A program made the translations under genes and the position numbers. Shown piece after piece: positions 7,100-64,000 of a stretch of 64,000 nucleotides of DNA. The notes beneath the pieces are model-generated. The model worked only from the letters and a program-made list of their open reading frames with translations, was not told the DNA's origin and ran no database searches. Position 1 is the first letter of the stretch, and every line of letters starts with the position of its first letter. The stretch comes from Polyangiaceae bacterium. GTDB taxonomy: Bacteria; Myxococcota_A; Polyangia; Polyangiales; Polyangiaceae. The stretch spans positions 1 through 64,000 of the forward strand of contig JAICQO010000009.1 in the NCBI GenBank assembly GCA_025937835.1, in the 5' to 3' direction.

Positions 7100-7115
7100 C
7101 GCTGGCGCGTGCCGC

Positions 7116-7751
7116 TCAGATCGGGTCTCCGACGCGGGGGCGCTTCAGGTCGTGCACCGCGACGTGCACGAGCAGGCCCGCGACCGCCGCAGAGATCCAT
7201 GCTTCGAAGGACTCCATCAGCCCCGCGTCCACCCACGACGCGAGCAAGATCCCGAGCCCGCTCGCCACCGCAAAGCCCGCGCAGCGAAAGGCCGCGCCCC
7301 GCCGCCCTTCGCGCCGCGCGTAAGCCGCTGCCACCACCGCAACCAGCGGGACCGTGTGTGCGACGAGCGCGATCAGCACGTCGAGGTGACTGAACGGCCC
7401 GTCGCTGATCCGCGCGATCGCGCCGAGCGCGAGCCCGTCCCCGACGTGGTGCACCATCAGTCCCCAGAACCCGAGCTCCAGCCCGAGGTCCGCCCCGTCC
7501 GTGGCGCGCCCGCGCATGAGCTGCTCGAGCCCGATCGGCAACACCGCACCCGCCGCAAACACCACGAGCGCCCAGGCAATGCCGATCGCGTGCACCGCCT
7601 CCGGCAAGATGTGCGCGAACACCACGACCAGACCCGCGATCAGCGCGAACGACCGCAGCATCGCGACCGGCTTCGGACTTCCGATTGGCGCAAGCCCGAG
7701 CGCGGCCCCGAGGGCGACGGCGAGCGTGGCCAAAACGAACGCGAGAGCCAA
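7116..7751 (-). CDS. ZIP-like metal transporter (short form)
   Basis: 211 residues with about seven hydrophobic segments. ZIP-type metal site motifs are seen: HILPEAVHAIG, then HHVGDGLALGA and VAHTVPLVAVV, which correspond to the histidine/acidic motifs in the central helices of ZIP zinc/iron permeases. The protein is somewhat short for the family and lacks an obvious His-rich loop. Metal specificity cannot be read. It is convergent with sppA and in the same direction as the FAD-oxidase/HupE genes, separated by about 30 bp from the former, so it may be the last gene of a minus-strand run. Confidence 0.65.
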   Translation of the reverse strand: MALAFVLATLAVALGAALGLAPIGSPKPVAMLRSFALIAGLVVVFAHILPEAVHAIGIAWALVVFAAGAVLPIGLEQLMRGRATDGADLGLELGFWGLMVHHVGDGLALGAIARISDGPFSHLDVLIALVAHTVPLVAVVAAAYARREGRRGAAFRCAGFAVASGLGILLASWVDAGLMESFEAWISAAVAGLLVHVAVHDLKRPRVGDPI

Positions 7752-7781
7752 GGGGGCGCGTTTCTAGCACGAACCGCGGGG

Positions 7782-9212
7782 TCAACAGGCCTGGTGCGCG
7801 CCCCCCGGGAAAATCTTGCCCGGATTCAACAGCCCGCTCGGATCGAACAGGCGCTTCAGGTCCTTTTGCAGAGCGATCAGCTCGGGTGACTGCTCGAGCG
7901 GCAGGTAGGGCGCCTTCAACACGCCGATCCCGTGCTCGCCGCTCAAGGTCCCCCCGAGGGCCACCACTTCCCGAAACAGATCCCCGATCGCGAGGTCCAC
8001 GCCCGGCATCTCGTCGTCGGTGTCCCACAAGAAGTTCACGTGCAGGTTGCCGTCGCCCGCGTGACCGTAGGTGAGCGAGCGCACCCGGTGCTTCTCGCAG
8101 CTCGCCGCCACGCGCTCCAGCAAGGTCGCGATGCATTGCCGCGGCACCACCACGTCCTCGCTCAGCTTGCGGCGAGTGAGCTTTCGCACGGCGTGGCTCA
8201 TCTCGCGGCGCGCCGCCCAGAGCCGCTCCCGTTGCCCTGCGTCCTGCGCGACGAGCACCTCGAGCGCCTGCGCCGCTTCACAAGCCATCCCGACTCGCTC
8301 CGCCGCGACCTCGCAGTCCCGCGCGGACCCGTCGACCTCGATCAAGAGCAGAGATCCCGCACGCGCGTCGATCGGATTGCCCGCCGCGCGCATCGCGTTC
8401 AACGTCGAGCCGTCGAAGAACTCGATGCAGCGCGCCGTCACGCCCGCGCTCGTCATCTCCGCCACGCAGCGCGTCGACGCGCGCACGTCGGGGAACAAGG
8501 CCAGCAGCGTCGTCACCGACTCCGGCTTGCGGATCAACTTCAAGGTGATGTCGCCGAACACCGCGAGCGTCCCTTCACTGCCGACCAGCAGCGCCGTCAC
8601 GTCGTACCCGGTCACGCCTTTCAGCGTGCGCCGGCCCACTTGCAGCCGCTGCCCGCCGATCAGCAAGGCCGTCATCCCGAGCACGTAGTCGCGCGTCACC
8701 CCGTATTTGAAAGCGCGCGGCCCGCCCGCGTTCTCCGCCACGTTCCCGCCCAGGCAGCACGACGACAGCGAGTTCGGATCCGGCGGATAGAACCAGCCCT
8801 CGCGCTCGACCGCGTCGTGAAGGCTCTTCAAAATCAGCCCCGGCTCGACGACCGCGATCCCCTCGCGCAGGTCGACGTCCTTCAGCTGATTCGTGCCGGA
8901 AATCGCCAGCACGATCCCGCCTCCGACCGGTACGGCTCCACCCGTGCGGCCCGTGCCGCCCGCTCGCGGCGTGATCGGCACTTCCGCCTCTCTCGCGGCG
9001 CCGAGCGCTTTCTGGATGTCATCGGTCGAGCTCGCCAGCACGACCGCGTCCGGGATCACGCCTTCCGCCTCCGACTCGTCGCGTACGAAACGCTCGCACG
9101 CGTCGCGCTCCACCAGGACCTTCGAGGGCCCGAGCGACGCCTCCAGCAGTCGGCGCGCCTTGTCGCGCGCTGCGACACTCGGTCGTGGTACGTCCGGTCG
9201 AGACAGCAGCAC
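7782..9212 (-). CDS. GlcD-type FAD-linked oxidase (glycolate/D-lactate dehydrogenase family)
   Basis: 476 residues. The N-terminal PCMH-type FAD domain shows PITPRAGGTGRTGGAVP and the flavin loop GGNVAENAGGPRAFKYGVT. The C-terminal FAD-oxidase domain shows YGHAGDGNLHVN and SGEHGIGVLKAPYL, the hallmark substrate-site histidines of GlcD and bacterial D-lactate dehydrogenases. Such enzymes oxidise 2-hydroxy acids and pass electrons to the respiratory chain. No GlcE or GlcF partner lies next to it, so a single-subunit D-lactate or D-2-hydroxyacid dehydrogenase is more likely than the glycolate oxidase complex. Confidence 0.88.
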   Translation of the reverse strand: MLLSRPDVPRPSVAARDKARRLLEASLGPSKVLVERDACERFVRDESEAEGVIPDAVVLASSTDDIQKALGAAREAEVPITPRAGGTGRTGGAVPVGGGIVLAISGTNQLKDVDLREGIAVVEPGLILKSLHDAVEREGWFYPPDPNSLSSCCLGGNVAENAGGPRAFKYGVTRDYVLGMTALLIGGQRLQVGRRTLKGVTGYDVTALLVGSEGTLAVFGDITLKLIRKPESVTTLLALFPDVRASTRCVAEMTSAGVTARCIEFFDGSTLNAMRAAGNPIDARAGSLLLIEVDGSARDCEVAAERVGMACEAAQALEVLVAQDAGQRERLWAARREMSHAVRKLTRRKLSEDVVVPRQCIATLLERVAASCEKHRVRSLTYGHAGDGNLHVNFLWDTDDEMPGVDLAIGDLFREVVALGGTLSGEHGIGVLKAPYLPLEQSPELIALQKDLKRLFDPSGLLNPGKIFPGGAHQAC

Positions 9213-9232
9213 GCAGCGAGCTTAGCGCGAAA

Positions 9233-10144
9233 CTAGGCGAACACGGCCCAGACCCGCTCGATTGCCCAACAGCTCGCAGCCGAGCCGATCGCGTACACGA
9301 GGGCGCGTTCCACCGTCGCTGCGCGCGCCCAGCGCGTCGCCGAGCGCAGCGCGAACCAAGCCGGCGCAACCACCAAGAGCTGCCCGAGCTCCACCCCCGC
9401 GTTGAACGCCCCGAGCGCGAGCGGAACCTGCTGCGGCGGCAGCCCGACCTCGGCGAGCGCCCCCGCGAACCCGAAGCCGTGCAAGAGCCCGAACCCGAAC
9501 GCCACGGCCCAGGGTGCGCGCCGCGACCACGAATCCCCGGGCTTTGCGCACTCCACCGCGACCAGCAGGATCGACAGCGCGATCACCGCCTCCACCGGGG
9601 CAGACGGCACGCGCACCCAGCCGAGCACCGCGCCCGCCAGGGTAACGCTGTGTGCCAGCGTGAACGCGGTCACCGTCGCCACCAGCCGCCTTCCGTCGCG
9701 AACCAACAGCACGAGGGCCAGCACGAACAGCAGGTGGTCGATTCCGCCGAGGATGTGCTCGACCCCGAGCTTCGAAAACTCCCGAATCGTCTCCGCGACG
9801 TCCGTTCCGCCCCGCAGCTCGAGCCGCGCGTGTTCTGCGGAGGCGACCTGGGTGAGCTCCTTTCCGCCCGCCCACTGCACCCGCACCACGATCCGGTGCG
9901 CGCTGCCCTCGAGACCCGCAAAGTCGATCGAGGTGAGCCCCTCGCTGCCGCAGTCGATCGCCCCCTCCAGCAACGCGCAGTGCTCCGGGAACTCGGGATC
10001 GACGCCTCTTGCCGGCGCGGTCCATCGGATTAGAAATCGTCCGGCCGCCGTCTCTTCCAGCGCGAGCGCGCCGGAGGTCGCCTGGTGGCAAAGCCCCGTC
10101 CGCGCGAACAGCAGCACCGCGCACAGCAGCAGCAAGCGGATCAC
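9233..10144 (-). CDS. HupE/UreJ-family membrane protein
   Basis: 303 residues. It has a signal peptide, an N-terminal soluble domain of about 110 residues, then six or so membrane helices with the family signature HILGGIDHLLFVLALVLLV, FTLAHSVTLA, FGLLHGFGFAGAL and FNAGVELGQL. HupE/UreJ proteins are thought to be nickel/cobalt permeases, but the long-ectodomain subgroup like this one has no proven substrate. Start is GTG overlapping the PPIase stop (GTGA), so the two are coupled; I recall this PPIase-HupE pairing in other bacteria. No hydrogenase or urease genes are in view. Confidence 0.82.
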   Translation of the reverse strand: MIRLLLLCAVLLFARTGLCHQATSGALALEETAAGRFLIRWTAPARGVDPEFPEHCALLEGAIDCGSEGLTSIDFAGLEGSAHRIVVRVQWAGGKELTQVASAEHARLELRGGTDVAETIREFSKLGVEHILGGIDHLLFVLALVLLVRDGRRLVATVTAFTLAHSVTLAGAVLGWVRVPSAPVEAVIALSILLVAVECAKPGDSWSRRAPWAVAFGFGLLHGFGFAGALAEVGLPPQQVPLALGAFNAGVELGQLLVVAPAWFALRSATRWARAATVERALVYAIGSAASCWAIERVWAVFA

Positions 10145-10959
10145 GACGCCTCCACGAAGCGGTACCGCGACAACAGACGCCGCTCCGCTTTCTCTTTCAG
10201 CTCGTCACCCAGCGACGCTTTCCAGTCACGCACGAGCCGCGGCAAAAGCAGCGCTTCATCCGGCAATCCCGCGGGGATCGTCGCGACGACCCGCACCGCA
10301 TGAAAGCCGCGCGTGCTCTCCAGAACCACGACCGCTCCGGGCCTCGCGCGCGCCACGCCCTCTGCGAACTCGAAGCCAAAGAGCCGCGCCAGATCCTCGA
10401 ACGCCACTTCTTCCACCTTCGAGCCCACGTCGTACACGTCCCCCAGCGCCGAAAGCTCTTTTCCCTCCTTTGCCGCGCTGGCCGCGAAGCCCTTCGCGCG
10501 CGCCTCGGCGTCGCCGCCTTCCCGCTTGGCGAAGGCGTGCTCGAGCGTGTAACGCTCCGGCACCTCGTAGCGCGCGCGGTTCGCCTCCAAGAACCCGGTG
10601 AGCTCGGTGTCGGTCGGCTCGCGCTGGATCTCGAGCCTGCGAAACACCTCCAGGGCACGCGCCGCGATCCGCGCCGCCAGCTCCGGATCCGTGTGATCCA
10701 CGCCGAGCCGCACGGCTTCGCGGTACACCACCTCGTCGCTCTTCCAGCGCGCAATCGCCTCGTCGCGCTCGGCCGCCGTCGCTGCCCGACCCAATCGCCC
10801 TTCCAGCTCGCGCACCAGGTGCTCGCGCGTCGCCCGAGTCACCCGCACGACGTGCGCATCATCCGTGCGCGCCGCCGTCGCCCGGAGCGCGGCGAGCAGC
10901 CCGCCGAGCACGACGAAGTGGAGCAGCGGCTCCCGCAGCAGGCGCAACATCGATGCCAT
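10141..10959 (-). CDS. Parvulin-like peptidylprolyl isomerase, membrane anchored
   Basis: 272 residues from the ATG at 10959 (or 10950). One N-terminal membrane anchor (LLHFVVLGGLLAAL) is followed by an SurA-like helical region with VYREAVRLGVDHTDPELAAR and a C-terminal rotamase-like domain (ERYTLEHAFAK, GFHAVRVV). The PPIase core is divergent and some canonical parvulin active-site residues are not obvious, so it may be a chaperone-like relative. It is translationally coupled to the HupE/UreJ gene downstream and probably acts periplasmically on it or on its ectodomain (inference). Longer in-frame upstream sequence runs through the duplicated dyad region and is rejected. Confidence 0.75.
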   Translation of the reverse strand: MASMLRLLREPLLHFVVLGGLLAALRATAARTDDAHVVRVTRATREHLVRELEGRLGRAATAAERDEAIARWKSDEVVYREAVRLGVDHTDPELAARIAARALEVFRRLEIQREPTDTELTGFLEANRARYEVPERYTLEHAFAKREGGDAEARAKGFAASAAKEGKELSALGDVYDVGSKVEEVAFEDLARLFGFEFAEGVARARPGAVVVLESTRGFHAVRVVATIPAGLPDEALLLPRLVRDWKASLGDELKEKAERRLLSRYRFVEAS

Positions 10960-11041
10960 CCTAGACCGGTGCCCGCCCTCCGGGCGCAACCCGCTCTGCC
11001 TCGACGTCCGGCAGACCGTCCACGTCGGGGGAGCCTTCTCC

Positions 11042-11157
11042 AAACCCCAATCACAGTCACGATCGAGACTGCTACCGTGCGGTGCCGGAGCGGGTGACGG
11101 TGGCGAGCATGATCTCGGGCCTCGAAACCCCCATCACAGTCACGATCGAGACTGCTA
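11042..11157. repeat. Two copies of a 33-bp repeat containing an 18-bp near-perfect dyad
   Basis: Copies at 11042-11074 and 11125-11157 differ at one base. Each contains the dyad CAGTCACGATCGAGACTG (11054-11071 and 11137-11154), which equals its reverse complement except at one symmetric pair of positions and is centred on CGATCG. The two dyads are 83 bp apart and lie about 95 and 178 bp upstream of the PPIase-HupE start on the minus strand. The shape suits a dimeric repressor or activator. The regulator is not identified. Confidence 0.6.
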
Positions 11158-11201
11158 AATCGTTTCGCGAAGTGGACTGCCTCCGTCGCGAGGCCCTCGC
11201 C

Positions 11202-11265
11202 CCGCGCGCAGCGCAGCGAGCACGGGGCTTGAGGGCCTCGGCCGCGCGCAGCGCAGCGAGCACGG
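11202..11265. repeat. Pair of 24-bp GC-rich direct repeats
   Basis: The 24-mer beginning CCGCGCGCAGCGCAGCGAGC occurs at 11202-11225 and again at 11242-11265, exactly 40 bp apart, each preceded by a gaggccctcg/gagggcctcg-like stretch. No coding role is apparent. Possibly a remnant of a dispersed genomic repeat. Confidence 0.5.
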
Positions 11266-11452
11266 CCGGCCGCCATTCGCCGTACCCCGCGGGGAGCAGC
11301 CCCTGCCGACCGCCCTGCCAAACTCAAAAACCCCGCATAAACGCGCCGAGTCCGAGCGTCTGCCGTCCCCTCGCACCGCTCGCGTGTGGATCCCGTGCGC
11401 CGCCGCTTGACCTCCGGAAGCCACCGGCTAGGGTTCGCCCCTCAGATCGCCC

Positions 11453-11540
11453 GGAGAGGTGACCGAGTGGCCGAAGGTACCCGCTTGCTAAGCGGGCGTA
11501 GGTCAAAAGCCTACCGCGGGTTCGAATCCCGCCCTCTCCG
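11453..11540 (+). tRNA. tRNA-Ser (GCT anticodon)
   Basis: The 88-nt cloverleaf folds cleanly. The acceptor stem GGAGAGG (11453-11459) pairs with CCTCTCC (11533-11539), with discriminator G at 11540. The anticodon stem CCCGC/GCGGG encloses loop TTGCTAA, with anticodon GCT at 11487-11489. A long variable arm (GTAGG...CCTAC) is present as expected for class II tRNAs, and the T loop is TTCGAATCC. The 3' CCA is not encoded. It reads serine codons AGC/AGT. No integrase or duplicated 3' end is seen nearby, so it does not look occupied by an element. Confidence 0.97.
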
Positions 11541-11717
11541 CTGATGCCCCCACCCGTCGCTCCTCGCAGCCCTTCGGGCCGCTGCGGGGCGCCGACGCTG
11601 ACACGGGTCGCAACGAACACCACCGCTCGTCGTTGCTTCGCCGAACCGCGTTGAACGCTGGATACCGATACCTGCCCGACGTGGACGCCTCGACAGCGAG
11701 GAAACCCACCGCGCCCC

Positions 11718-12692
11718 TCAACCGCTCGGTGGTTCCCCGAGATCGAGGAGCTGCGAGCAGTAAAGGCCGACGCACTCGCTCGGCGTGGAGCGCGCGATGA
11801 GCTGTTGCATGGCGCGGACGTACTGCAGGTGGAGGTCGTGGAGCTCGCGCAGGGTGGCTCTCGAGACGGCGAAAACGCTGTAGCCGAAGCGACCCGGCGC
11901 GTTCGTCTTGAGGCGTTCGAGCGCTGTCTCCAGCCAGGCGACCTTCAGGGCCCGAGCGCGCTCAGGGTACTGGCCCGTGTCTATCGCCATGACTTCGAGC
12001 AAGCGGTAGCCGCGAGCGGTGCGTTTCACCTGCGCAGACCGTTCGAGCAGCTCGAGAGCGTCTCGAACTCGTTGCGGCGTAACGCACAAGCGGCGAGCAA
12101 TCCAAGCGCGCTGCGCAGCCGCGCCATTTGGCATGCCTTGGAGCTCGAGGGCCCGCAAGACCGCGTGCGACCAAGGCAAGTCGTAGCCTGCGTGGCGGGC
12201 GAGCTGGAGCCGCTCCCAGGCGCGGCTCACCGAGGGGACGCGGCTCGGATCTTCGACGGCTGCGATCAGATCGGGGAGGCGCCGGCTCATAACGTCCACC
12301 AGGCGGAGAAAATCTGGAAGCTTGGGTTCGGCCTCGCCCGCAAGCCAGCGCGCGACGCTGTAGCGATTGCGGTGAGCGAGCTCGGCGATCCGCAATACGG
12401 GCGTCTTTCCCCGAAGGTGCCTGAGGAACGCGGCGACGGCAGCAGCGGAGGTCGGTTCGTAGGCGGCAGCCCACTCGGGGAGCACGTGAAAGAAGGTCGC
12501 GAGCCAGTTTTTCGCTGTTGGGCGCAGCTTGCGGCGCACCTGAAGGAAGCGCGCAGCCGTGGGCCAGCTTCGCTGCGACTCCCACCGGTGCACGATGTTG
12601 CTGCGATAGCCGGCGCGGCGGCTCAGCTCCGCACACGATCTCTGCCCTCGTAGTGCCCGCACCAGCTGCGCTGCGGTCACCTCGTAGTTCAT
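11718..12692 (-). CDS. TIGR02147/DUF4423-type regulator
   Basis: 324 residues from MNYEVTAAQLVRALRG. The N terminus is a helix-turn-helix of the XRE kind (CAELSRRAGYRSNIVHRWES), the middle repeats a second HTH-like piece (HRNRYSVARWLAGE), and the C-terminal half (WIARRLCVTPQRVRDALELLER then GYSVFAVSRATLRELHDL) fits the DUF4423 part of the TIGR02147 family that is expanded in myxobacteria and Fibrobacter. Function in that family is unproven but regulatory in appearance. It is divergent from a lipoprotein gene; the 129-bp gap carries two phased 10-bp repeats that could be its operator. Confidence 0.72.
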   Translation of the reverse strand: MNYEVTAAQLVRALRGQRSCAELSRRAGYRSNIVHRWESQRSWPTAARFLQVRRKLRPTAKNWLATFFHVLPEWAAAYEPTSAAAVAAFLRHLRGKTPVLRIAELAHRNRYSVARWLAGEAEPKLPDFLRLVDVMSRRLPDLIAAVEDPSRVPSVSRAWERLQLARHAGYDLPWSHAVLRALELQGMPNGAAAQRAWIARRLCVTPQRVRDALELLERSAQVKRTARGYRLLEVMAIDTGQYPERARALKVAWLETALERLKTNAPGRFGYSVFAVSRATLRELHDLHLQYVRAMQQLIARSTPSECVGLYCSQLLDLGEPPSG

Positions 12693-53003: not shown

Positions 53004-54503
53004 ATGGACGCTTCACTCGTGGATCCCTTGCTTCGCCCGCGTCAGCTCTGGGTCTTGTTGGCCGGGGCGGCTGCCCTGCCCGGCTGCCCGCCCACCGACG
53101 ACTATTTTCTGAGCCAAACCCAGCCAACCAGCACCGCCGGTGCGTCTGCGGGCAACGCCGGCCAGCCACCCATGGGCGATCCGCACCCGGAGTGCGGTAA
53201 TGGAGTCGCCGAGGGGGCCGAGGGCTGCGACGGCGCCGATCTGCGAGGCGCGAGCTGTGAGTCCTTGGGTCAAGGCACTGGGCAACTCACTTGCGTGAAC
53301 TGCAAGCTGGACAACGCCGGGTGCGAAGTCAGGTTGCCCTTCTGCGGCGACGGAATCGTCGATCCCGAAAAGGAGGGCTGCGACGGCGCGGATCTGCGCC
53401 AGGCGACTTGCGAGCTCCTCGGCTACGAGGGGGGAACGCTGGTCTGTACTGCCACGTGCCACCTCGACACGGACGGTTGCACGAGCGCGACACCCGTCGC
53501 GGTGTGCGGCAACGGTTCCGTGGAAGCAGACGAGCTCTGCGACGGGCTCAACTTGCGCAGCCAGACCTGCCAGAGCCTCTTGGGTCAGGCGTCCGGGACG
53601 CTGCGCTGCACGACCCTGTGTGCGTTGGACGCGTCGGATTGCACCTTGCACCGGGCAATGTGCGGCAACGGTATCCCCGAGGGCGCCGAGAGCTGCGACG
53701 GCGCCGACCTCAAAGGCTACACCTGCGAAACCGTCGGATTCGGGCCCGGCAAGCTCTCCTGCACGGGCTGCGCGTTCGACACGACCGGCTGCGGCACGGC
53801 GGTAAGCGGCTGTGACGGGCTGGGCGGCTCGGGCGGTACCGGCTCTGCCTGCTGCGTGCCCGCTGCCGAGATCTGCGACGGGCGCAGCAACGACTGCGAC
53901 GCGGAGGTGGACGAAGGCGGCGTGTGTCCGGACGGCTGCACCGCCCAGCTTTACGAGGACCGTCTCTACCTGCTGTGCATCCACCCCGACGCCACGGCCC
54001 AACGTGACTACGCCGACGCCTCCGCCGATTGCGCGGCCGCGACTACGACGCTCGGGCTCCCGATCGCCCTCGAGCTCGCGCACATCGAGTCCGCACCCGA
54101 AAATGCGTTCGTGAAGGGCTGGATCCGGGAGCGCATTGCGGAGGCCGGCGTGACCGAGGGCATGGTCTGGAACGGCGCCAACGACATCGCGCGCGAAACG
54201 CGCTGGGTCTGGGGCCAGGGGCTGAACGCCGTGCACTTCTTCCAGGGCACGTTGTTCGGCGGCGGCGATCCGGTGGCCGGGCGCTTCCATGATTTTGCCT
54301 CGGGCCGCCCCAACAGCGCGAACGCCACCGACGAGGACTGTGGGGGGTTCGACTCGGAAGCAGACTGGCGCTGGAATGACCGGCTCTGCACGCGACGCGC
54401 GCTCGGCTTCGTGTGCGAGCAGTCCGACGGCAACTCCGGCATGCCCCCCCCCACGGCCCCGCCGCCCCCACCGGGTCCGATGGGTCCGAGGCCGTGGCCG
54501 TAG
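53004..54503 (+). CDS. Lipoprotein with four Cys-rich repeats and a C-type lectin domain
   Basis: 499 residues. Signal with lipobox ALPGC. Four repeats of about 45 residues each begin CGNG/CGDG and contain EGCDGADL...C...G.L.C...C..D..GC, a disulfide-rich module typical of myxobacterial surface proteins. The C-terminal domain shows LYLLCIHPDATAQRDYADAS and AHIESAPENAFVKGWI, EGMVWNGANDIARETRWVWG, DCGGFDSEADWRWNDRLCTR, that is the C-type lectin fold with its WND motif and Cys pairs. Ends in a Pro-rich tail. Likely surface sugar binding. Confidence 0.87.
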   Translation: MDASLVDPLLRPRQLWVLLAGAAALPGCPPTDDYFLSQTQPTSTAGASAGNAGQPPMGDPHPECGNGVAEGAEGCDGADLRGASCESLGQGTGQLTCVNCKLDNAGCEVRLPFCGDGIVDPEKEGCDGADLRQATCELLGYEGGTLVCTATCHLDTDGCTSATPVAVCGNGSVEADELCDGLNLRSQTCQSLLGQASGTLRCTTLCALDASDCTLHRAMCGNGIPEGAESCDGADLKGYTCETVGFGPGKLSCTGCAFDTTGCGTAVSGCDGLGGSGGTGSACCVPAAEICDGRSNDCDAEVDEGGVCPDGCTAQLYEDRLYLLCIHPDATAQRDYADASADCAAATTTLGLPIALELAHIESAPENAFVKGWIRERIAEAGVTEGMVWNGANDIARETRWVWGQGLNAVHFFQGTLFGGGDPVAGRFHDFASGRPNSANATDEDCGGFDSEADWRWNDRLCTRRALGFVCEQSDGNSGMPPPTAPPPPPGPMGPRPWP

Positions 54504-56298: not shown

Positions 56299-56453
56299 GG
56301 CCGGAGCGTAGCCCGCGCACGCCGCCGCACCAGTCCTACCCGGAAGGCTCGTATTCTGGCCTCGGAGCGGAGGTCGCCGGCGCCCGGCGGAATAAATGAC
56401 CAGACGCGGGGGTGGTGTGATCTTCCGGTAGTTGTTCTAAACATGGACCCCGA

Positions 56454-57557
56454 GTGACCACATTCCTTCCGGAAGGCCGCGCCACGAGGGATCCGTATCT
56501 GCGCTCCGCGTCGCTCTCGAGCGCCTTCGAGCGTTGGCAGCAGAGGTACCACCCCTACCCGATCGCCGTTCCAGCGGAGCTCCGCCGGCGAGTGCCGCTC
56601 CCGATGCCGCTCGAGCGCCTGACGCCGAGGTTGGAGCAAACGTCGCACGATCCGGCGCACGCCTACATGTGCGCGTGCTGCGAGCACACGCTGAACAAGA
56701 TCCGGCATCCACAGGCGGAGCGCTTCAAGCATTCGAGACACGCGCACACGCCGAGGCGGTCCGCGAAGCCGAGGCTCGAACACTCGGATCACGAGGTCGA
56801 TATCGAATATGCGATCGACTCGTCGATCACGACGGTCAGCATCTGGTCGTTCTTCGTCGGCGTCACCGAGCAGCAGGCGAAACGGATCGTCGAAATGGCG
56901 GATCCGCCGAACTGGCACGGAGCCGTACCGGCCTTCTTCGAGGGCAGCGATCCGGGGACGCTCGATGAAGCCACCGGCAAGTTCCAGGTCGATCCGGAGC
57001 TCGCTCGAGCGCCGGCACCGAACAAGTACCAGCTCCGAGAGTACGTGGAGTGGCACTGGTCCCCCCAGGTAGAGGGCGGCATGGTCAACGTGCTCGAGAT
57101 CGAGCGCCCGAGCCGCGAGCCCCGGCCCGCGGCCGCCTTGGTGGAGGAGGTGCTGCTCCGAACCCAGGCCGAGGACCGCTACGCGGCGCTGCTCGCTCCG
57201 AAAGCCCACGGCAACACTCCGGAGTTACTGGACGAGTACGACTACCGGCTCGTGCGCAGCGTGCAATCGATGTTCGTGAGCAGCTGGGAAACGGGCGGCA
57301 TCGACGTCGACGAGGGCAGCTATGCCGCCGTGTGGATGGGCCCGGTGCCCGAGCGCCATCCGGGAGCGCTGTTCGTGTACTCGAGAAAGGCGCTCCGCTA
57401 TTCTCAGCGCGCGGACATCATCCCCGGCTTCAAGACGCTGTTGAATCTGCTCGCGCCGGCGGTGACGAGCATGCTCATGACCCATCTCGGCTACAGCGGC
57501 ATCGTGAACTTTCTGAGGGGCTCTCCCGACGAGCGCACGGACCACGTCGCTGCTTGA
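56454..57557 (+). CDS. Unknown protein, first gene of the isoprenoid-type operon
   Basis: 367 residues from GTG. No signal peptide. Visible features: a Cys cluster MCACCEHTLN near residue 72, an acidic/aromatic region SIWSFFVGVTEQQAKRIVEM, WHGAVPAFFEGSDPG, a mixed C-terminal half (RLVRSVQSMFVSSWETGG, MLMTHLGYSGIVNFLRG). I recognise no family. It is separated by 23 bp from the next gene and begins a run of seven same-strand genes. A tiny frame ATG-GAC-CCC-GAG-TGA (56443) overlaps its start, perhaps by chance. Confidence 0.65.
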   Translation: MTTFLPEGRATRDPYLRSASLSSAFERWQQRYHPYPIAVPAELRRRVPLPMPLERLTPRLEQTSHDPAHAYMCACCEHTLNKIRHPQAERFKHSRHAHTPRRSAKPRLEHSDHEVDIEYAIDSSITTVSIWSFFVGVTEQQAKRIVEMADPPNWHGAVPAFFEGSDPGTLDEATGKFQVDPELARAPAPNKYQLREYVEWHWSPQVEGGMVNVLEIERPSREPRPAAALVEEVLLRTQAEDRYAALLAPKAHGNTPELLDEYDYRLVRSVQSMFVSSWETGGIDVDEGSYAAVWMGPVPERHPGALFVYSRKALRYSQRADIIPGFKTLLNLLAPAVTSMLMTHLGYSGIVNFLRGSPDERTDHVAA

Positions 57558-57579
57558 TCCACGGAAGGAACACCCACGA

Positions 57580-58146
57580 ATGGCCAACAATCCCCCTGCC
57601 CCCGGCGGCAAAGCGATCCCGGAAGTCGAACGAACCGGCTCCTTCCCGGGCTACCAACGCGGGTTGTCGCTGTTCGCGTTGTGGGCCGAGACGATGCAAC
57701 AGCAGAGCCGGGTCTGGAACGAGGCCTGGGGCAAGCTCACGGCGGGCAAGTACGAGATGAGCGACTGGTACCGCGGGGTCGGACAAATGTTGAGCTCGAG
57801 CGCGAGCGCGACCGAGCGCGCGGTGCAGATCCTGGCCGGTACGGAGTCACCCCCGTGGGTCGCCATGCCGTGGCGCCCGATGAGCGAAGTACCGGTCCGC
57901 GTGCGGCGCCCGGTGGACGGCGGCCACGCGCTGAGCATCCCGGCTCTCCTGTATTGCGGTCCCGACGGGGGCGGAGGTAGCGTCATCCGCGGCAACGCGC
58001 GCGTCGACGGCGACACGATCCTGCTCGCGCTCAAGCCCGACGACAGCCGCGCGGTGAAAGAAGGCCCGTACATGGGCTTTTTGTTCAGCGATCGCTATCC
58101 CGGCGAACCGCTCGCGGTGCTGACGACTCAGGCCAGCCCTTACTGA
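57580..58146 (+). CDS. Small operon protein, phasin-like N terminus plus beta C terminus
   Basis: 188 residues. Helical amphipathic N-terminal half (SLFALWAETMQQQSRVWNEA, then WYRGVGQMLSSSASATERA) and a beta-rich C-terminal half (VRVRRPVDGGHALSIPALLY, ending GPYMGFLFSDRYPGEPLAVL). The C terminus resembles the end of the other small protein in this operon (GTYNGLFLERGSQRPCG), so they are probable paralogues. No enzyme motif. Perhaps a membrane- or granule-surface scaffold (inferred). Confidence 0.6.
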   Translation: MANNPPAPGGKAIPEVERTGSFPGYQRGLSLFALWAETMQQQSRVWNEAWGKLTAGKYEMSDWYRGVGQMLSSSASATERAVQILAGTESPPWVAMPWRPMSEVPVRVRRPVDGGHALSIPALLYCGPDGGGGSVIRGNARVDGDTILLALKPDDSRAVKEGPYMGFLFSDRYPGEPLAVLTTQASPY

Positions 58147-58160
58147 GGGCATGTCGACGA

Positions 58161-58322
58161 AGGTGCAGCCTCCGACCAAAGTCGCCGTGATCGGGGGGGG
58201 TACGTGAGCACCGGAGCGCAGCGAAAACGAAGCCAAAACCCAAAATCGCCGGGCGTGGTGGAAGCTAAAGATCCCGGGGATGAGGTGCAGCCTCCGACCA
58301 AAGTCGCCGTGATCGGGGGGGG
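58161..58322 (+). repeat. 40-bp exact direct repeat at the start of the FAD oxidoreductase
   Basis: Bases 58161-58200 and 58283-58322 are identical (starting aggtgcagcctccgaccaaa). Copy 1 belongs to a short frame ATG at 58151 that reads MSTKVQPPTKVAVIGGG and then stops at 58205. Copy 2 gives VQPPTKVAVIGGGC at the N terminus of the real gene. The offset of 122 bp is not a multiple of three, so the first copy cannot be joined to the gene. It looks like a partial tandem duplication of the gene start, or an assembly problem. Confidence 0.85.
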
Positions 58323-60405
58323 ATGCGCGGGCATGACCGCCGCGTTCGAGCTCACGCGTCCGGAGCTCGGCGGGCGCTATCGAGTGACCGTGTACCAGAT
58401 GGGTTTTCGGCTGGGCGGCAAGGGCGCGTCGGGACGCGGCGAGCACGGTCGCGTCGAAGAGCACGGGCTCCACCTGTGGATGGGATACTACGAGAACGCG
58501 TTCCGGCTGATGCGCGACTGTTACGCAGAGCGGCTCGAGCTCGACCCGGATCGCCCCGCCTTGCGCTTCGAGGACGCGTTCTCGCCGGCCCATTTCAACG
58601 GGGCGATGGATTTAGCGGCGAACGGCGAGTGGTTGCCGTGGAAGGTCGACTTTCCGGCCATGCCAGGCCTGCCGGGCGATCCGAACCCGCCCAAGCTCGA
58701 CATCCCGACCTACCTGATCCACGCCGCGCGGCTGCTGCGCACCTTGCTCACGACGCTGTCTGGCGTGGACGACGCGAAGGCCGAACCGGTGCGCCCGCGC
58801 GCGCAGCCCTCGGAAGGCGAGCTCACCGAGCTCCTGAAGCGGCTGACCCAGCTCGGCGCGTTCGCAGGGCTCGGTGCGGCGGTCGAGGCCACGCGCTGGC
58901 TCGAGCTGGTGCTCGGCGCTCTGCCGGAATACCCACAGAGCCTGATCGCGCGTTTGCTCGACGCGGTCTCCGAGCTCGCGCAAACGGAGCTCCGGCGCCT
59001 GACGGAGGCGAACCACGAGCTGCGCCGGCTGTGGGAGATCGCCGAGCTGATCCTCGCGACGATCCGCGGCTGCGTCCGCTTCCGGCTGGTCTTCGATCCG
59101 CGCGGCTTCGACGCGATCGACGACTACGACTGCCGCGAATGGCTGGCGCTGAACGGCGCCTCGCAGGGCGCGATCGACAGCGCCTTCATCCGCGCGCTCT
59201 ACGATCTTGCCTTTGCTTACGAGGGCGGAGACGAAAAGCGCCCGGCGATCGCGGCGGGCTCGGCGTTGCGCGGCGCCTTTCGGGCGTTTTTCAGCTACCG
59301 CGGCGCGTTCTTCTGGCGCATGAACGCCGGCATGGGCGACATCGTGTTCGCTCCGCTCTACGAGGTGTTGTGCCGGCGCGGCGTGCGCTTCGAGTTCTTT
59401 CACAAGCTCACGAACGTGGGCCTTTCGGAGCCCGGAGCCGCTTCCGCGCACGTCCGGGAGCTCGAGTTCGACGTGCAAGCGCACACGCTTTCGGGCGGCG
59501 AGTACGAGCCCCTCTGCTCGGTGAAGGGGCTCCCATGCTGGCCGGCTCGGCCGCTCTTCGAACAGCTGGTGGGCGGCGCGGAGCTCGAGGCGCTCGGGAT
59601 CGATTTCGAGACGCAGAGCGACCGGCGCGCGTGCGAGAGAAAGCTCTTGCGCGTGGGCGTCGATTTCGATTTCGCCGTGCTCTCGGTCGGCCTCGGCGTG
59701 CTGCGCTCGGTGTGCGGCTCGATCCTCGAGCGCGACGAGCGCTACCGCAACATGCTCGAGCACGTAAAGTCGGTGCCGACCCAAGCCTTTCAGCTCTGGC
59801 TCGACAAGGATCTATGGGAGCTCGGCGGGGGCAGCCGCCCGATCAACCTCTCCGGTTACGTGGAGCCCTTCGACACGCTCGCCGACATGACGCACTTGAT
59901 CCCGAAAGAGGATTGGGCGCGGCCGCCGAAGCTGCTCGCCTACTTCTGTAACGTGCTCCGCGACACCGCCGACCCGCGAGATGGGCGCTACGACACCGAA
60001 GAGTTCCTCGCGCGCGAGCGCTCGCGTGTCCGCCAGCATTGCGTCGATTTCTTGAGCCGCGACGCTGCAGCGCTGTGGCCGGCTTCGCGGGTTGCCGGCG
60101 GGTTCGACTGGTCGGCGCTGTCCTCTGACGCAAAGCTCGAAGGGCCGGCGCGCTTCTCGTCGCAATACTGGACGGCGAACGTGAGACCGAGCGACCGCTA
60201 CTCCCAGGCGTTGCCAGGCAGCACGCGTTTTCGGATCTCTCCTCTCGACCAGAGCTACGACAACCTGACCCTGGCAGGCGACTACACGAACTGCAGCTTG
60301 AACATGGGCTGCGTCGAAGCGGCGGTGATGTCGGGCATGCTCGCGGCGCACGCGCTGTCCGGCTTTCCCGCGCTAGCGAACATCGTCGGATACGATCACC
60401 CTTGA
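58204..60405 (+). CDS. Large FAD-dependent oxidoreductase, desaturase/amine-oxidase-like
   Basis: 733 residues from GTG 58204 (overlaps a TGA). FAD-binding motif VAVIGGGCAGMTAAFELTRP, then GFRLGGKGASGRGEHGRVEE, where the RxGG type motif of the phytoene desaturase/hydroxysqualene-dehydroxylase group is seen, and HLWMGYYENAFRL. The end shows NLTLAGDYTNCSLNMGCVEA, the ADP-ribose/FAD-closing motif of these enzymes. About 730 residues is longer than most such enzymes. In an operon with an isoprenyl diphosphate synthase, an isoprenoid substrate is plausible. The N-terminal 25 residues before VQPPTK are the insert between two repeats. Confidence 0.8.
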   Translation: MSTGAQRKRSQNPKSPGVVEAKDPGDEVQPPTKVAVIGGGCAGMTAAFELTRPELGGRYRVTVYQMGFRLGGKGASGRGEHGRVEEHGLHLWMGYYENAFRLMRDCYAERLELDPDRPALRFEDAFSPAHFNGAMDLAANGEWLPWKVDFPAMPGLPGDPNPPKLDIPTYLIHAARLLRTLLTTLSGVDDAKAEPVRPRAQPSEGELTELLKRLTQLGAFAGLGAAVEATRWLELVLGALPEYPQSLIARLLDAVSELAQTELRRLTEANHELRRLWEIAELILATIRGCVRFRLVFDPRGFDAIDDYDCREWLALNGASQGAIDSAFIRALYDLAFAYEGGDEKRPAIAAGSALRGAFRAFFSYRGAFFWRMNAGMGDIVFAPLYEVLCRRGVRFEFFHKLTNVGLSEPGAASAHVRELEFDVQAHTLSGGEYEPLCSVKGLPCWPARPLFEQLVGGAELEALGIDFETQSDRRACERKLLRVGVDFDFAVLSVGLGVLRSVCGSILERDERYRNMLEHVKSVPTQAFQLWLDKDLWELGGGSRPINLSGYVEPFDTLADMTHLIPKEDWARPPKLLAYFCNVLRDTADPRDGRYDTEEFLARERSRVRQHCVDFLSRDAAALWPASRVAGGFDWSALSSDAKLEGPARFSSQYWTANVRPSDRYSQALPGSTRFRISPLDQSYDNLTLAGDYTNCSLNMGCVEAAVMSGMLAAHALSGFPALANIVGYDHP

Positions 60406-60419
60406 GCTCGAGACCCATC

Positions 60420-61136
60420 ATGGACGACAGCAACCGACCGAAACGGCCCAAAATGGAGCGCACCGAGCCCGATCGCTCCTGGATGAACGGCTCTTTCGGG
60501 CCGGGCGCATCCGCTGCGGGCTCGGACCCGCGCGCAGCGGGTTACCAGGCGATCAACAACGCTTATCGCCTGATCGACGAGTACGTGCGCCAGGGACAAC
60601 GCATGGCCGAAAACCTGTGGTTGCCGCTGGACGGGTCGGCCGGGCGCGCCGCAAGCGCCTTCAACGCCCCAGAGCGGCTGATGCGCGCCATGGGCGACAT
60701 GACGATGGCCTGGCTCGAGGTGATGGAGCAATTCACGAAGAATGCGCAAGCCAAGCCCTCACCGGTCCCGGCCGGGAGCGCTGGCCCGTTCGCGAGCTCG
60801 CGCGTGGAGCCGCCGCCCGCCGCTACCGAAGCTCCGTCGCCGTCCGCGCCAGCGAAGGCCCAACCGCTGAAGCTATCGCTCGACGCGCGCGGCCGTGTCG
60901 AGGTCTCGTTCCAGCTCGCAGACGCAGCGTCACTGGCAGAGCTCGCCGTGACGGAGCTTCGGTCGTTCGGGAGCGATGCCGAGCCGATCCGCGGCGTCGA
61001 GCTCTCGGGCGCGCCGGACGAGCCGGTGCTGCGCGTGCGCGTTCCCGAGGGCCAGCCGGCGGGGACTTACAACGGCCTGTTTCTCGAGCGCGGGAGCCAA
61101 CGGCCCTGCGGCACCATCAGCCTGGTCGTGCACTGA
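60420..61136 (+). CDS. Small operon protein, paralogue of the gene at 57580
   Basis: 238 residues from the ATG at 60420 (a TTG at 60402 overlapping the previous stop is possible). N-terminal helices (YQAINNAYRLIDEYVRQGQR and MAWLEVMEQFTKNAQ) resemble phasin-like proteins, then an Ala/Pro/Ser linker and a beta domain (LKLSLDARGRVEVSFQLA, ending RVPEGQPAGTYNGLFLERGS). The C-terminal end matches the smaller protein upstream (GPYMGFLFSDRYPGEP). The two flank the FAD oxidoreductase. Role unknown. Confidence 0.6.
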   Translation: MDDSNRPKRPKMERTEPDRSWMNGSFGPGASAAGSDPRAAGYQAINNAYRLIDEYVRQGQRMAENLWLPLDGSAGRAASAFNAPERLMRAMGDMTMAWLEVMEQFTKNAQAKPSPVPAGSAGPFASSRVEPPPAATEAPSPSAPAKAQPLKLSLDARGRVEVSFQLADAASLAELAVTELRSFGSDAEPIRGVELSGAPDEPVLRVRVPEGQPAGTYNGLFLERGSQRPCGTISLVVH

Positions 61137-61148
61137 GCCCGTAGCGCC

Positions 61149-62180
61149 GTGAGTCCGCCTTCCGACCTCGTTCGCTCCGTGCTCGACGAATATGGCTCGC
61201 TCGCTCAGCGCGCGCTGTCGTCGTACCTCGAGCGCGAGTCGCGCCGCTCGGACGTGTACCGGCTCGCCGCCGATTACCCGCTGCGCAAGGGCCGCAGCCT
61301 GCGCGCGAGCCTGTGCATGGCTGCAGCCCGGGCCTTCGGCGCCGCGGCGGAAGAGGCGGTGTACTCCGCGGTGTCGCTCGAGCTGATGCACAACGCCTTC
61401 CTGGTTCACGACGACATCGAGGACGAGAGCGACGAGCGGCGCGGAGGACCCGCGCTCCATCGCTTGCACGGGGTGCCGGCGGCTCTGAACGCCGGGGATG
61501 CACTGGTAGTCCTCGGCCTGCGCCCGCTGCTCCAAAACCGCGACGTGCTCGGTGCGCGTGTGTCTTTCAGGATCCTCGAAGAGGCGGAGCGCATGGTGCG
61601 CGAATCGGTCGAGGGGCAGGCGCTCGAGCTCCGCTGGCGCCGCGAGAACGCGGACGCCCTCACCGAATCCGACTACCTCCGGATGACGCTCAAGAAGACC
61701 TGCTGGTACACCTCCATTTACCCGATCCGCGTCGGCGCGTTGATCGGGACTCGCGATGGGGTGGACCTCGACGCGTTCGTGCGCTTCGGCTTCTTCCTGG
61801 GCACGGCGTTCCAGATCCAGGACGATCTCTTGAATTTGCACGGCGATCACGCCCAGTACGGCAAAGAGCTCGAGGGAGACCTGCGCGAAGGCAAGCGGAC
61901 ACTGATGCTGATCCGGCTGCTCGAAGCGGCGACCGAAGCGGAGCGCGCCCGAGCGCTGCGGTTGCTCGAGCTGCCGCGCGCCGCCAAGCCGCAGACGGAG
62001 CTCGCCTGGCTACGCGACACGATGCTACGGCTCGATTGCATCGACTATGCACGCGCCGTGGCGCACGCGCTGGCGGGCGCTGCGCTCGGCGAGTTCCCGA
62101 GGGCGTTCGGCGACGCCCTCGAGGGCCGGGACAAGCGCTTCATCGAGTCTCTCCCGTACTGGGCCCTCGAGAGGTCCTGA
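61149..62180 (+). CDS. Isoprenyl diphosphate synthase (GGPP-synthase-like)
   Basis: 343 residues from GTG 61149. First Asp-rich motif is HDDIEDESDERRGG, with DDIED in place of DDxxD; Lys/Arg for diphosphate are present in LRKGRSLRASLCMAA. The second motif is FQIQDDLLNLHGDH, where DDLLN replaces DDxxD, as in some type III GGPP synthases. Lys in KRTLMLI. The family condenses IPP with allylic diphosphates to C15-C20 or longer products; product length cannot be read reliably. It is preceded by 12 bp and followed by 2 bp in the operon. Confidence 0.85.
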   Translation: MSPPSDLVRSVLDEYGSLAQRALSSYLERESRRSDVYRLAADYPLRKGRSLRASLCMAAARAFGAAAEEAVYSAVSLELMHNAFLVHDDIEDESDERRGGPALHRLHGVPAALNAGDALVVLGLRPLLQNRDVLGARVSFRILEEAERMVRESVEGQALELRWRRENADALTESDYLRMTLKKTCWYTSIYPIRVGALIGTRDGVDLDAFVRFGFFLGTAFQIQDDLLNLHGDHAQYGKELEGDLREGKRTLMLIRLLEAATEAERARALRLLELPRAAKPQTELAWLRDTMLRLDCIDYARAVAHALAGAALGEFPRAFGDALEGRDKRFIESLPYWALERS

Positions 62181-62182
62181 GC

Positions 62183-63247
62183 GTGCAGGCCATGCCCAGC
62201 CAAAGCGTGCTCGTGTACGGCGCGAACGGCTACACGGCGCGGCTGTTCTTCCCGCGCCTTCGTGAGCTCGGCATCGAAACGATCGCCGCGGGGCGCAACG
62301 CCGAGGCCGTGCGCGGGGTGGCGCAGCGCTTCGGTCTGCCGCACCGCGTGTTCCCGCTCGACGAGCCCGCGGGGCTAGACCGCGAGCTCCGCGGCGTCCG
62401 CTTGCTGTTGAACGCGGCCGGGCCCTACACCCGGACCGCGCGCCCGATGATCGACGCTTGCCTGCGCCAGCGCGTGGACTACCTGGATCTATCGGGTGAG
62501 CTCGAGCCCCTCTCCTATGCCGCCGACTCGGGCCGGATCGCGCGGGAGCTCGGGGTGATGCTGCTGCCCGCGATCGGCTTCGACGTGGTTCCGTCCGATT
62601 GCCTGGCGCTTCACCTGTCCGAGCGGCTACCGGGCGCAGAACGCCTGATCCTGAGCATTTCCGCGTCGAACCTGCTGTCCCGCGGATCAGCGGCGACGTT
62701 CGTCGAGCACGCCGGCACGAGTGTCCACGTCCGGCGCGACGGCGCGCTCGAGCCGCTTCGTTTGCGTACCCAGATGCGCTTCACCGACTTCGGCAGCGGC
62801 GCGCGGCCCACGATCGCCGTGAGTTGGGGCGACCTCGTCACGGCCCATCACTCGACCGGGATCCGCAACATCGAGGTTTATTTCGAGGCCACGGCCTTTC
62901 GCTGGTTCGCGGTCACCGCCAATCAATACTGGGGCTGGGCGCTGCGCGGCGACACCGCCAAGTCCGCGCTCGGCGCGCTCACTCGGATCTTGCCGGAGGG
63001 CCCGAGCGAGGCCGAGCGACAACGCGAGCGCTCCGTGATCGTCGGCGAGGTCCTGCGCGGCGGCGAGCGGCGGAGAGCCCGGCTGGTCGTGCCGGAAGCC
63101 TACACGTTCACGGCGGAGGTCGGCTGCCGCGTGATCGAGGCAGTCCTGCGCGGTGTTCGCGCCCCCGGCTTCCGAACGCCCGCCAGCTTGTTCGGCGCTG
63201 ATTTCGTGCTCGGCTCGCCGGAAGTTTCGCGAGAGGACCTGGAATGA
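62183..63247 (+). CDS. Saccharopine dehydrogenase-like reductase
   Basis: 354 residues. Start is GTG 62183 with a gagg ribosome site, or ATG 62192 (MPSQSVLVYG). Rossmann fold VLVYGANGYTARLFFPRLRE with AAGRNAEAV, then LLLNAAGPYTRTARPMIDAC and VDYLDLSGELEPL, the signature of the Lys9/saccharopine-dehydrogenase NAD(P)-binding group that includes trans-acting enoyl reductases. It overlaps the next gene by 4 bp. In this context reduction of an isoprenoid or lipid intermediate is more plausible than lysine metabolism. Confidence 0.83.
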   Translation: MQAMPSQSVLVYGANGYTARLFFPRLRELGIETIAAGRNAEAVRGVAQRFGLPHRVFPLDEPAGLDRELRGVRLLLNAAGPYTRTARPMIDACLRQRVDYLDLSGELEPLSYAADSGRIARELGVMLLPAIGFDVVPSDCLALHLSERLPGAERLILSISASNLLSRGSAATFVEHAGTSVHVRRDGALEPLRLRTQMRFTDFGSGARPTIAVSWGDLVTAHHSTGIRNIEVYFEATAFRWFAVTANQYWGWALRGDTAKSALGALTRILPEGPSEAERQRERSVIVGEVLRGGERRRARLVVPEAYTFTAEVGCRVIEAVLRGVRAPGFRTPASLFGADFVLGSPEVSREDLE

Positions 63248-64000
63248 GCATCGGAGAACGTGAGCTCGTGAGCTCCGCGACGCTCGACGGGCTGTGTTGC
63301 GAGCTCCTGATTGAGCGCCAGCGGCTGCTCGCTCTGATCCGGAGCCACGGCGCGCTCGACATCCAACCCGCGAGCGACGGCGATCCGCAGCTTTTGCCGG
63401 TGGTGTGCGAGCTTTGGCACGTGACGGATGGCCGCTCGCTCTTCGGCGGGCTCGATCCAGAGCGGGTCTTCGAGCAGTGGGCCGGTGTGGCGGGCGCCTT
63501 CTTCGGGCCGGGCGCGGAGTCCATCCGAGCCCTGAATCGCTTGTTCTCGTTGGGCCCCTACCACGAGTGTTTGGTGGCCGTACCGAACGTGCTCCTCGAG
63601 CACCGAGGCCAGCGCCACGCGCTCGTGCTCGCCATGATCACCGATAACCCGATCGCGCTCGCGATCGATCGCAGCTTTCGCTACGGCTATCGAAAGCGGC
63701 TCGGCCGCTTCGATTTCGAAGACCGTCGTCGTTTCGAGGTGAGCGTGGAGCGCGAGCTGGTGGTTCTGGGCGAGATCGCCGAGGAGGAGGCCCTAGGGGA
63801 GCCAGATCGAGCCTGGTTCGACGAATATTGGGCGCAGCCGTTGCTCGGGTGGCTCGGGCCGCGTGATTTTCGGCGCTCCTGGCTCGAACGCCGGCTCTCC
63901 GCCTCGGAAGCGCGAGCGTCGCAGGTCGCCTCGAGCGTGGCGCTGTCGCCGGAGCTCGGGCTCGGCGGAGAGCGCGTTCACGGCCGGGCCGTCTCGTTCA
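63244..64000 (+). CDS. Acetoacetate decarboxylase-like protein, cut by right edge
   Basis: At least 252 residues; the frame is still open at the window end. Start ATG overlaps the preceding TGA. The stretch GPYHECLVAVPNVLLEHRGQ, then LVLAMITDNPIALAIDRSFR and YGYRKRLGRFDF has the layout of acetoacetate-decarboxylase-like proteins, with the K in the GYRKRL region matching the PKK/L segment. No catalytic Lys can be assigned with certainty. The last gene seen in the operon; its function may be lyase- or ligand-binding-like. Confidence 0.55.
   Translation, partial: MSIGERELVSSATLDGLCCELLIERQRLLALIRSHGALDIQPASDGDPQLLPVVCELWHVTDGRSLFGGLDPERVFEQWAGVAGAFFGPGAESIRALNRLFSLGPYHECLVAVPNVLLEHRGQRHALVLAMITDNPIALAIDRSFRYGYRKRLGRFDFEDRRRFEVSVERELVVLGEIAEEEALGEPDRAWFDEYWAQPLLGWLGPRDFRRSWLERRLSASEARASQVASSVALSPELGLGGERVHGRAVSF

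Follow-up and report, generated by a model that had tools for sequence, protein, structure and literature searches.

A complete seven-gene operon at the right end of the window (64,000 nucleotides of Polyangiaceae DNA, bases 1-64000 of a 121-kb contig in the 6.9-Mb draft genome G000) is one copy of a widespread gene cluster whose relatives have been kept together across phyla. The operon occupies positions 56454-64050 of the + strand and comprises genes g1 to g7 (Table 1). An earlier sequence-only reading of the window had described it as an unusual gene set centred on an isoprenyl diphosphate synthase (IPPS, g5), a flavin adenine dinucleotide (FAD) oxidoreductase (g3) and a reductase (g6), which our analysis supports. 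On balance, we consider it probable that the operon is a copy of a patchily distributed biosynthetic cluster for a modified isoprenoid, the chemistry being deduced from what is known of the enzyme families. A bolder proposal is that at least seven phyla share an undescribed isoprenoid pathway. It would have new protein families of its own (g4, g2 and g1), giant two-domain enzymes of the acetoacetate decarboxylase (ADC) fold and a STAND kinase/cyclase dedicated to it, and its product could be a bacterial terpenoid signal or a terpenoid inclusion body; this we put forward tentatively, as possible rather than probable. IPPS and desaturase-like enzymes are known kinds, yet the cluster may turn out to be categorically new once its product is known. 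The open PubMed Central collection, which leaves out subscription papers and preprints, yielded no description of the cluster; this agrees with the sequence-only reading, whose author knew of no described pathway with this gene set.

We scanned one genome per species, 84,980 species in all, with the FAD profile only and kept the best 80 of 340 relatives. Genes in the fetched loci were called with a home-made finder, and presence counts were redone by six-frame profile searches. The sequence-only reading had named genes not conserved together as a ground for abandoning it; the check was run and the finding survived. In 58 of the 70 loci with both enzymes, the FAD, g4 and IPPS genes are contiguous on one strand; another 8 have g4 next to the IPPS gene. 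Among 38 relatives searched, 5 have a close FAD enzyme (48-55% identity), each time with g4 and an IPPS at the same locus, and the g4 profile matches all 6 carriers (five relatives and the window's genome) and 0 of the 33 other relatives. The cluster spans at least seven phyla (Myxococcota, Pseudomonadota, Cyanobacteriota, Acidobacteriota, Gemmatimonadota, Binatota and, in rearranged form, Mycobacterium). In the FAD tree, the IPPS-linked enzymes, including the mycobacterial ones, fall together in a single supported group of 67 rows that mixes Myxococcota, Pseudomonadota and Binatota. Transfer between phyla is a likely cause of this mixing; the tree alone is no proof of it, and there are bins among the records. 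In a class sample of 192 genomes, an FAD relative (E ≤ 1e-100) occurs in 32, of which only a minority have the close type. Thus, the cluster is accessory and patchy. Its conservation in at least seven phyla together with a signalling protein and an IPPS of its own points to a bacterial isoprenoid that has perhaps never been looked for. The product is directly testable in named carrier strains, which include Archangium violaceum Cb vi76, Minicystis rosea DSM 24000, Sulfitobacter mediterraneus DSM 12244, Rhodopila globiformis DSM 161 and Synechococcus sp. BO 8801.

The cluster occurs in two architectures that exclude each other, one with an ADC-like protein, usually giant, and one with g1 and g2. 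Among 44 complete IPPS loci, g1 is present in 14 and missing from 30; an ADC of the type we call c4 is encoded in 29 of the 30 loci without g1 and in none of the 14 with it (Fisher p ~5e-8 from an uncorrected table, with counts that ignore relatedness). The ADC matches in two g1 loci (L025 and L026) belong to a different subfamily, of small ADC proteins. The g1 protein is usually accompanied by g2-like proteins, and the window belongs to this g1 and g2 architecture. The mycobacterial copies encode a g1-like protein (hhalign probability 87.5%) and a g4-like protein (95%, over the C-terminal domain). Compared with the mycobacterial small protein, g2 reaches only 24%. A homology between g1 and the giant ADC was considered and is unsupported (hhalign 0.1%). 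Any replacement of one by the other would therefore be functional and not by descent.

In the pathway that we propose, the dedicated IPPS g5 would make a prenyl diphosphate, most likely C20 (geranylgeranyl diphosphate, GGPP). The FAD enzyme g3, of the phytoene desaturase (PDS), zeta-carotene desaturase (ZDS) or HpnE type, would desaturate, saturate or dehydroxylate the isoprenoid chain. An ADC-fold protein with a conserved lysine of presumed Schiff-base type (in this operon g7, at other loci mostly a two-domain giant) would act on a carbonyl intermediate in the manner of a decarboxylase or an aldolase, and the saccharopine-dehydrogenase-like g6 may reduce a C=C or C=O bond with NAD(P)H. The g4 and g2 proteins could keep the enzymes on a lipid surface or coat the product, the START-like pocket of g1 could carry it, and all three may handle a hydrophobic intermediate. 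Finally, the adjoining STAND kinase/cyclase-AAA protein may control the pathway or sense its product.

The precursor is best considered from g5, which passes the PF00348 polyprenyl synthetase model (178.9 bits, cut-off 27) and has both Asp-rich motifs intact, DDIED (DDxxD) and DDLLN (DDxxN). Its nearest solved relative is the Thermus thermophilus GGPP synthase (PDB 1wmw), with 214 bits over most of the protein. The g5 protein shares both motifs with this enzyme and with IdsA, from which it differs by an Ala instead of Trp at position -5 and by being bound to the FAD-g4 cluster. Counted back from the first Asp-rich motif, this residue is Ala in 62 of the 68 IPPS members of the cluster. From published farnesyl diphosphate synthase mutants, we take an Ala there to fit products of C20 or somewhat longer. 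The Ala and the Thermus match together suggest GGPP as the most likely product. The window's genome has four further IPPS genes outside the operon, which argues that g5 is the cluster's dedicated IPPS. The sequence-only reading had suggested a modified polyprenyl lipid or an unusual side chain. Taken as a long-chain polyprenyl lipid or a quinone side chain, this would have the IPPS make a C30-C50 chain that is then modified. An Ala at -5 does permit products beyond C15, and many long-chain synthases match g5; however, they match less well than short-chain synthases (IdsA, GGPP synthase, the Thermus enzyme), and neither a ring prenyltransferase nor a quinone gene is among the shared neighbours. 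The sequence features suit a C20 precursor at least as well as a longer polyprenyl, and we regard the long-chain product as unlikely. The best NCBIfam match of g5 is NF041169, the family 2 encapsulin cargo polyprenyl transferase, yet at 163.5 bits it is far under the cut-off of 450. No encapsulin was seen by inspection among the gene families shared by the loci, and no shell model was run. Cyclic nucleotides presumably figure in both settings, through the cyclase beside this cluster and the cyclic-nucleotide-binding shells of family 2 encapsulins.

The cluster has a regular neighbour, a STAND-type protein that combines an AAA_16 domain with either a class III cyclase or a Ser/Thr kinase domain and usually has TPR repeats. 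Of 36 complete IPPS loci, 35 have it nearby, as do 15 of the 25 FAD loci that lack IPPS; in the window's genome, only 2 bp separate its gene from the operon. In Archangium (L042), a kinase and a weak cyclase domain stand in one protein, which links the two kinds. A signalling or conflict system, in which the enzymes make a lipid messenger recognised by the STAND kinase/cyclase, for example in a stress or phage response, would fit the frequency of this partner, the patchy distribution over mixed phyla and the resemblance of the kinase and cyclase domains to those of PADLOC models. However, g1 to g7 have no PADLOC match, and the STAND proteins match only through generic kinase or cyclase domains, so that we think such a system improbable. 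A minimal pair of FAD and STAND genes without IPPS lies elsewhere in the window's genome (locus L037, G000:C29:58001-78000, both genes on the minus strand). There, a second, distant FAD relative is a 975-residue fusion (8855-11782) with an N-terminal domain related to a 317-residue neighbour protein of Rufibacter, and a 1741-residue kinase-AAA protein (3617-8842) is encoded 12 bp from it.

The g3 protein matches the amine oxidase family of Pfam, and its best named NCBIfam families are HpnE (62.9 bits, cut-off 283), ZDS (41.8, cut-off 622) and PDS (32.1, cut-off 569). As a single sequence, it finds plant PDS in the PDB (E 1.8e-4); a PDB profile search with the FAD alignment matched none. With plant/cyanobacterial-type PDS and ZDS and with HpnE, g3 has in common the FAD-binding N-terminus, an E-x-x-G-L-H-x-W-x-G-x-Y segment and a C-terminal G-D-W-T. 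In g3, the segment reads E-E-H-G-L-H-x-W-x-G-x-Y and is highly conserved among cluster FAD enzymes; we take it to correspond to GLHxFFGxY of PDS and ZDS. The g3 type differs in its length, about 700 residues with an extra helical stretch as compared with 430-480 in PDS, ZDS and HpnE.

These affinities raise the possibility of a carotenoid- or squalene-type pathway, with the FAD enzyme acting on phytoene, squalene or a related head-to-head product from a synthase elsewhere in the genome. A squalene/phytoene synthase (PF00494) is indeed encoded on another contig in the window's genome, which has one such gene, and in the genomes G006 and G013. PF00494 is nevertheless unmatched in three draft carriers (G033, G034 and G007; 95, 99 and 86% complete), a setting that differs from that of PDS, ZDS and HpnE; a carotenoid or hopanoid product is thus unlikely there. 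The sequence-only reading had seen no terpene cyclase or carotenoid synthase, and neither a terpene cyclase nor a squalene/phytoene synthase is among the gene families shared by the loci. With an IPPS already next to the genome's own synthase, a dedicated one would also be superfluous, and we rate this pathway as quite unlikely. That synthase and IPPS lie together at G000:C10:35104-38253, probably the genome's carotenoid or squalene locus. We can largely dismiss a catabolic cluster degrading isoprenoids or other hydrophobic compounds, suggested by an outer-membrane protein transport (FadL-type) gene next to IPPS-free relatives in Azospirillum, since an IPPS is an anabolic enzyme and a dedicated one goes with almost all FAD genes in the supported clade of 67 rows. 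The Azospirillum brasilense Sp 7 group (plasmid p3, L121, 9648-24668) comprises two FAD relatives, an ADC-family gene, the outer-membrane transport gene and a gene for a 1919-residue kinase-AAA protein, and adjoins eutB and eutC.

The ADC-like proteins of the cluster vary greatly in size. The c4 type has about 420 residues in cyanobacteria and is elsewhere up to about 1300 residues long and two-domain. Like the acetoacetate decarboxylase superfamily, these proteins have an ADC-like domain with a conserved lysine (GREVYGWPK); unlike a typical ADC, the giants have two domains, the second of which has lost the lysine, and g7 is very divergent. We take the Schiff-base position from Lys115 of ADC. 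The first domain of the giants has a lysine there in 15 of 15 aligned sequences, and a lysine is present in a similar segment of g7 and other small ADC proteins, as placed by alignment. The label of g7 as acetoacetate-decarboxylase-like, given in the sequence-only reading, is backed by homologues: a related small ADC protein reaches 30.2 bits with the Pfam model, and g7 is linked to its subfamily by profile (E 6.6e-6). Several g1 loci hold small ADC-like proteins, of the g7 type or of another subfamily. In the giants (L117, 18134-21961, and relatives; alignment A11), the motif KQFRD...CYQAL occurs in both ADC-like domains.

The remaining proteins of the operon were examined through predicted structures and profile comparisons. 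From about residue 110 on, the predicted g1 model adopts a START/SRPBCC helix-grip fold, with 25 Foldseek matches at E ≤ 0.001 (best VIA-align Z 12.2, root-mean-square deviation 3.6, 159 residues). It differs from the members of this fold in giving no sequence match to them and in having some 110 additional N-terminal residues of low confidence. Homologues of g1 are present in other g1-type loci. The g1 protein is thus predicted to be START-like with a hydrophobic ligand pocket. Members of the fold bind ceramide, carotenoids, abscisic acid or polyketides, and a common fold shows no function. The g4 protein is predicted to form long helices at residues 43-72 and 86-115 and a confident C-terminal β-sandwich at 157-243. 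Like phasins, it would be a small helix-pair protein beside a lipid-related enzyme, and it differs from them by the additional β-sandwich. The g2 and g4 proteins had been called two small paralogues; this holds for their last 40 residues or so (hhalign 91.6%, E 8e-7), the part that the relation covers. The match of g2 to the NCBIfam phasin PhaP6 reaches E 0.11 only. Ahead of the g4 helices (window 60420-60510, alignment A4), a basic segment of the approximate form R-x-K-R-P-x-x-x-R-x-x-P-x-R is common to many phyla and could be a docking or targeting peptide. Finally, g6 is just over the Sacchrp_dh_NADP cut-off (26.5 versus 25.1 bits), and its matches in the PDB are at chance level only. The earlier annotations of g3, g5 and g6 hold in each case.

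Several observations weigh against a modified-isoprenoid pathway as laid out above. For g3 and four relatives alike, every named FAD family scores far under its curated cut-off. Taken alone, g7 also misses the Pfam ADC cut-off (15.6 versus 29.8 bits), and g6 is present in 26 and absent from 18 of the 44 complete loci. The fold search with g4 gave no PDB match at E ≤ 0.001, and no Pfam phasin family matched any of 36 g4 members; the phasin-like or lipid-surface role suggested for g4 and g2 comes solely from their predicted helices. The STAND count is given without a background rate within 10 kb, and such genes are common in myxobacteria.

Within the window, all seven genes are open frames on the + strand with no internal stops and a strong coding signal from the GC bias at third codon positions (third-position GC 0.83-0.87, second-position 0.46-0.56), which confirms the same-strand operon of the sequence-only reading. 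The spacings from g1 to g7 are 22, 57, -4, 12, 2 and -4 bp. On the left, a divergent MntP-like gene closes the operon, 155 bp from g1. The operon had been thought to run on past the right edge of the window; on the extended contig, g7 ends 50 bp beyond that edge, and the gene after it (contig 64053-67820), for the 1255-residue protein kinase-AAA_16 protein, is convergent. With its seven genes, the operon is therefore complete.

Table 1. Genes of the operon and the adjoining intergenic stretch (positions in the window unless stated).
Feature	Position	Strand	Length	Description
intergenic stretch	56299-56453	.	155 bp	between divergent MntP-like gene and g1; presumed promoter region
g1	56454-57557	+	367 aa	no Pfam match; predicted START/SRPBCC helix-grip fold
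g2	57580-58146	+	188 aa	no Pfam match; C-terminal end related to that of g4
g3	58204-60405	+	733 aa	FAD oxidoreductase, HpnE / ZDS / PDS type; core gene, conserved in all loci
g4	60402-61136	+	244 aa	no Pfam match; two predicted helices and C-terminal β-sandwich; hallmark family of the cluster
g5	61149-62180	+	343 aa	IPPS with DDIED and DDLLN motifs; core gene
g6	62183-63247	+	354 aa	saccharopine-dehydrogenase-like NAD(P)-binding reductase; GTG start, alternatively ATG at 62192
g7	63244-64050 (contig; 63244-64000 inside window)	+	268 aa	divergent ADC-like protein; candidate lysine in YGYRKRL

Upstream of the operon, at 53004-54503, the window encodes a protein of 499 residues that repeats cysteine-rich CGNG...CDGADL units and has a lectin-like C-terminal part.

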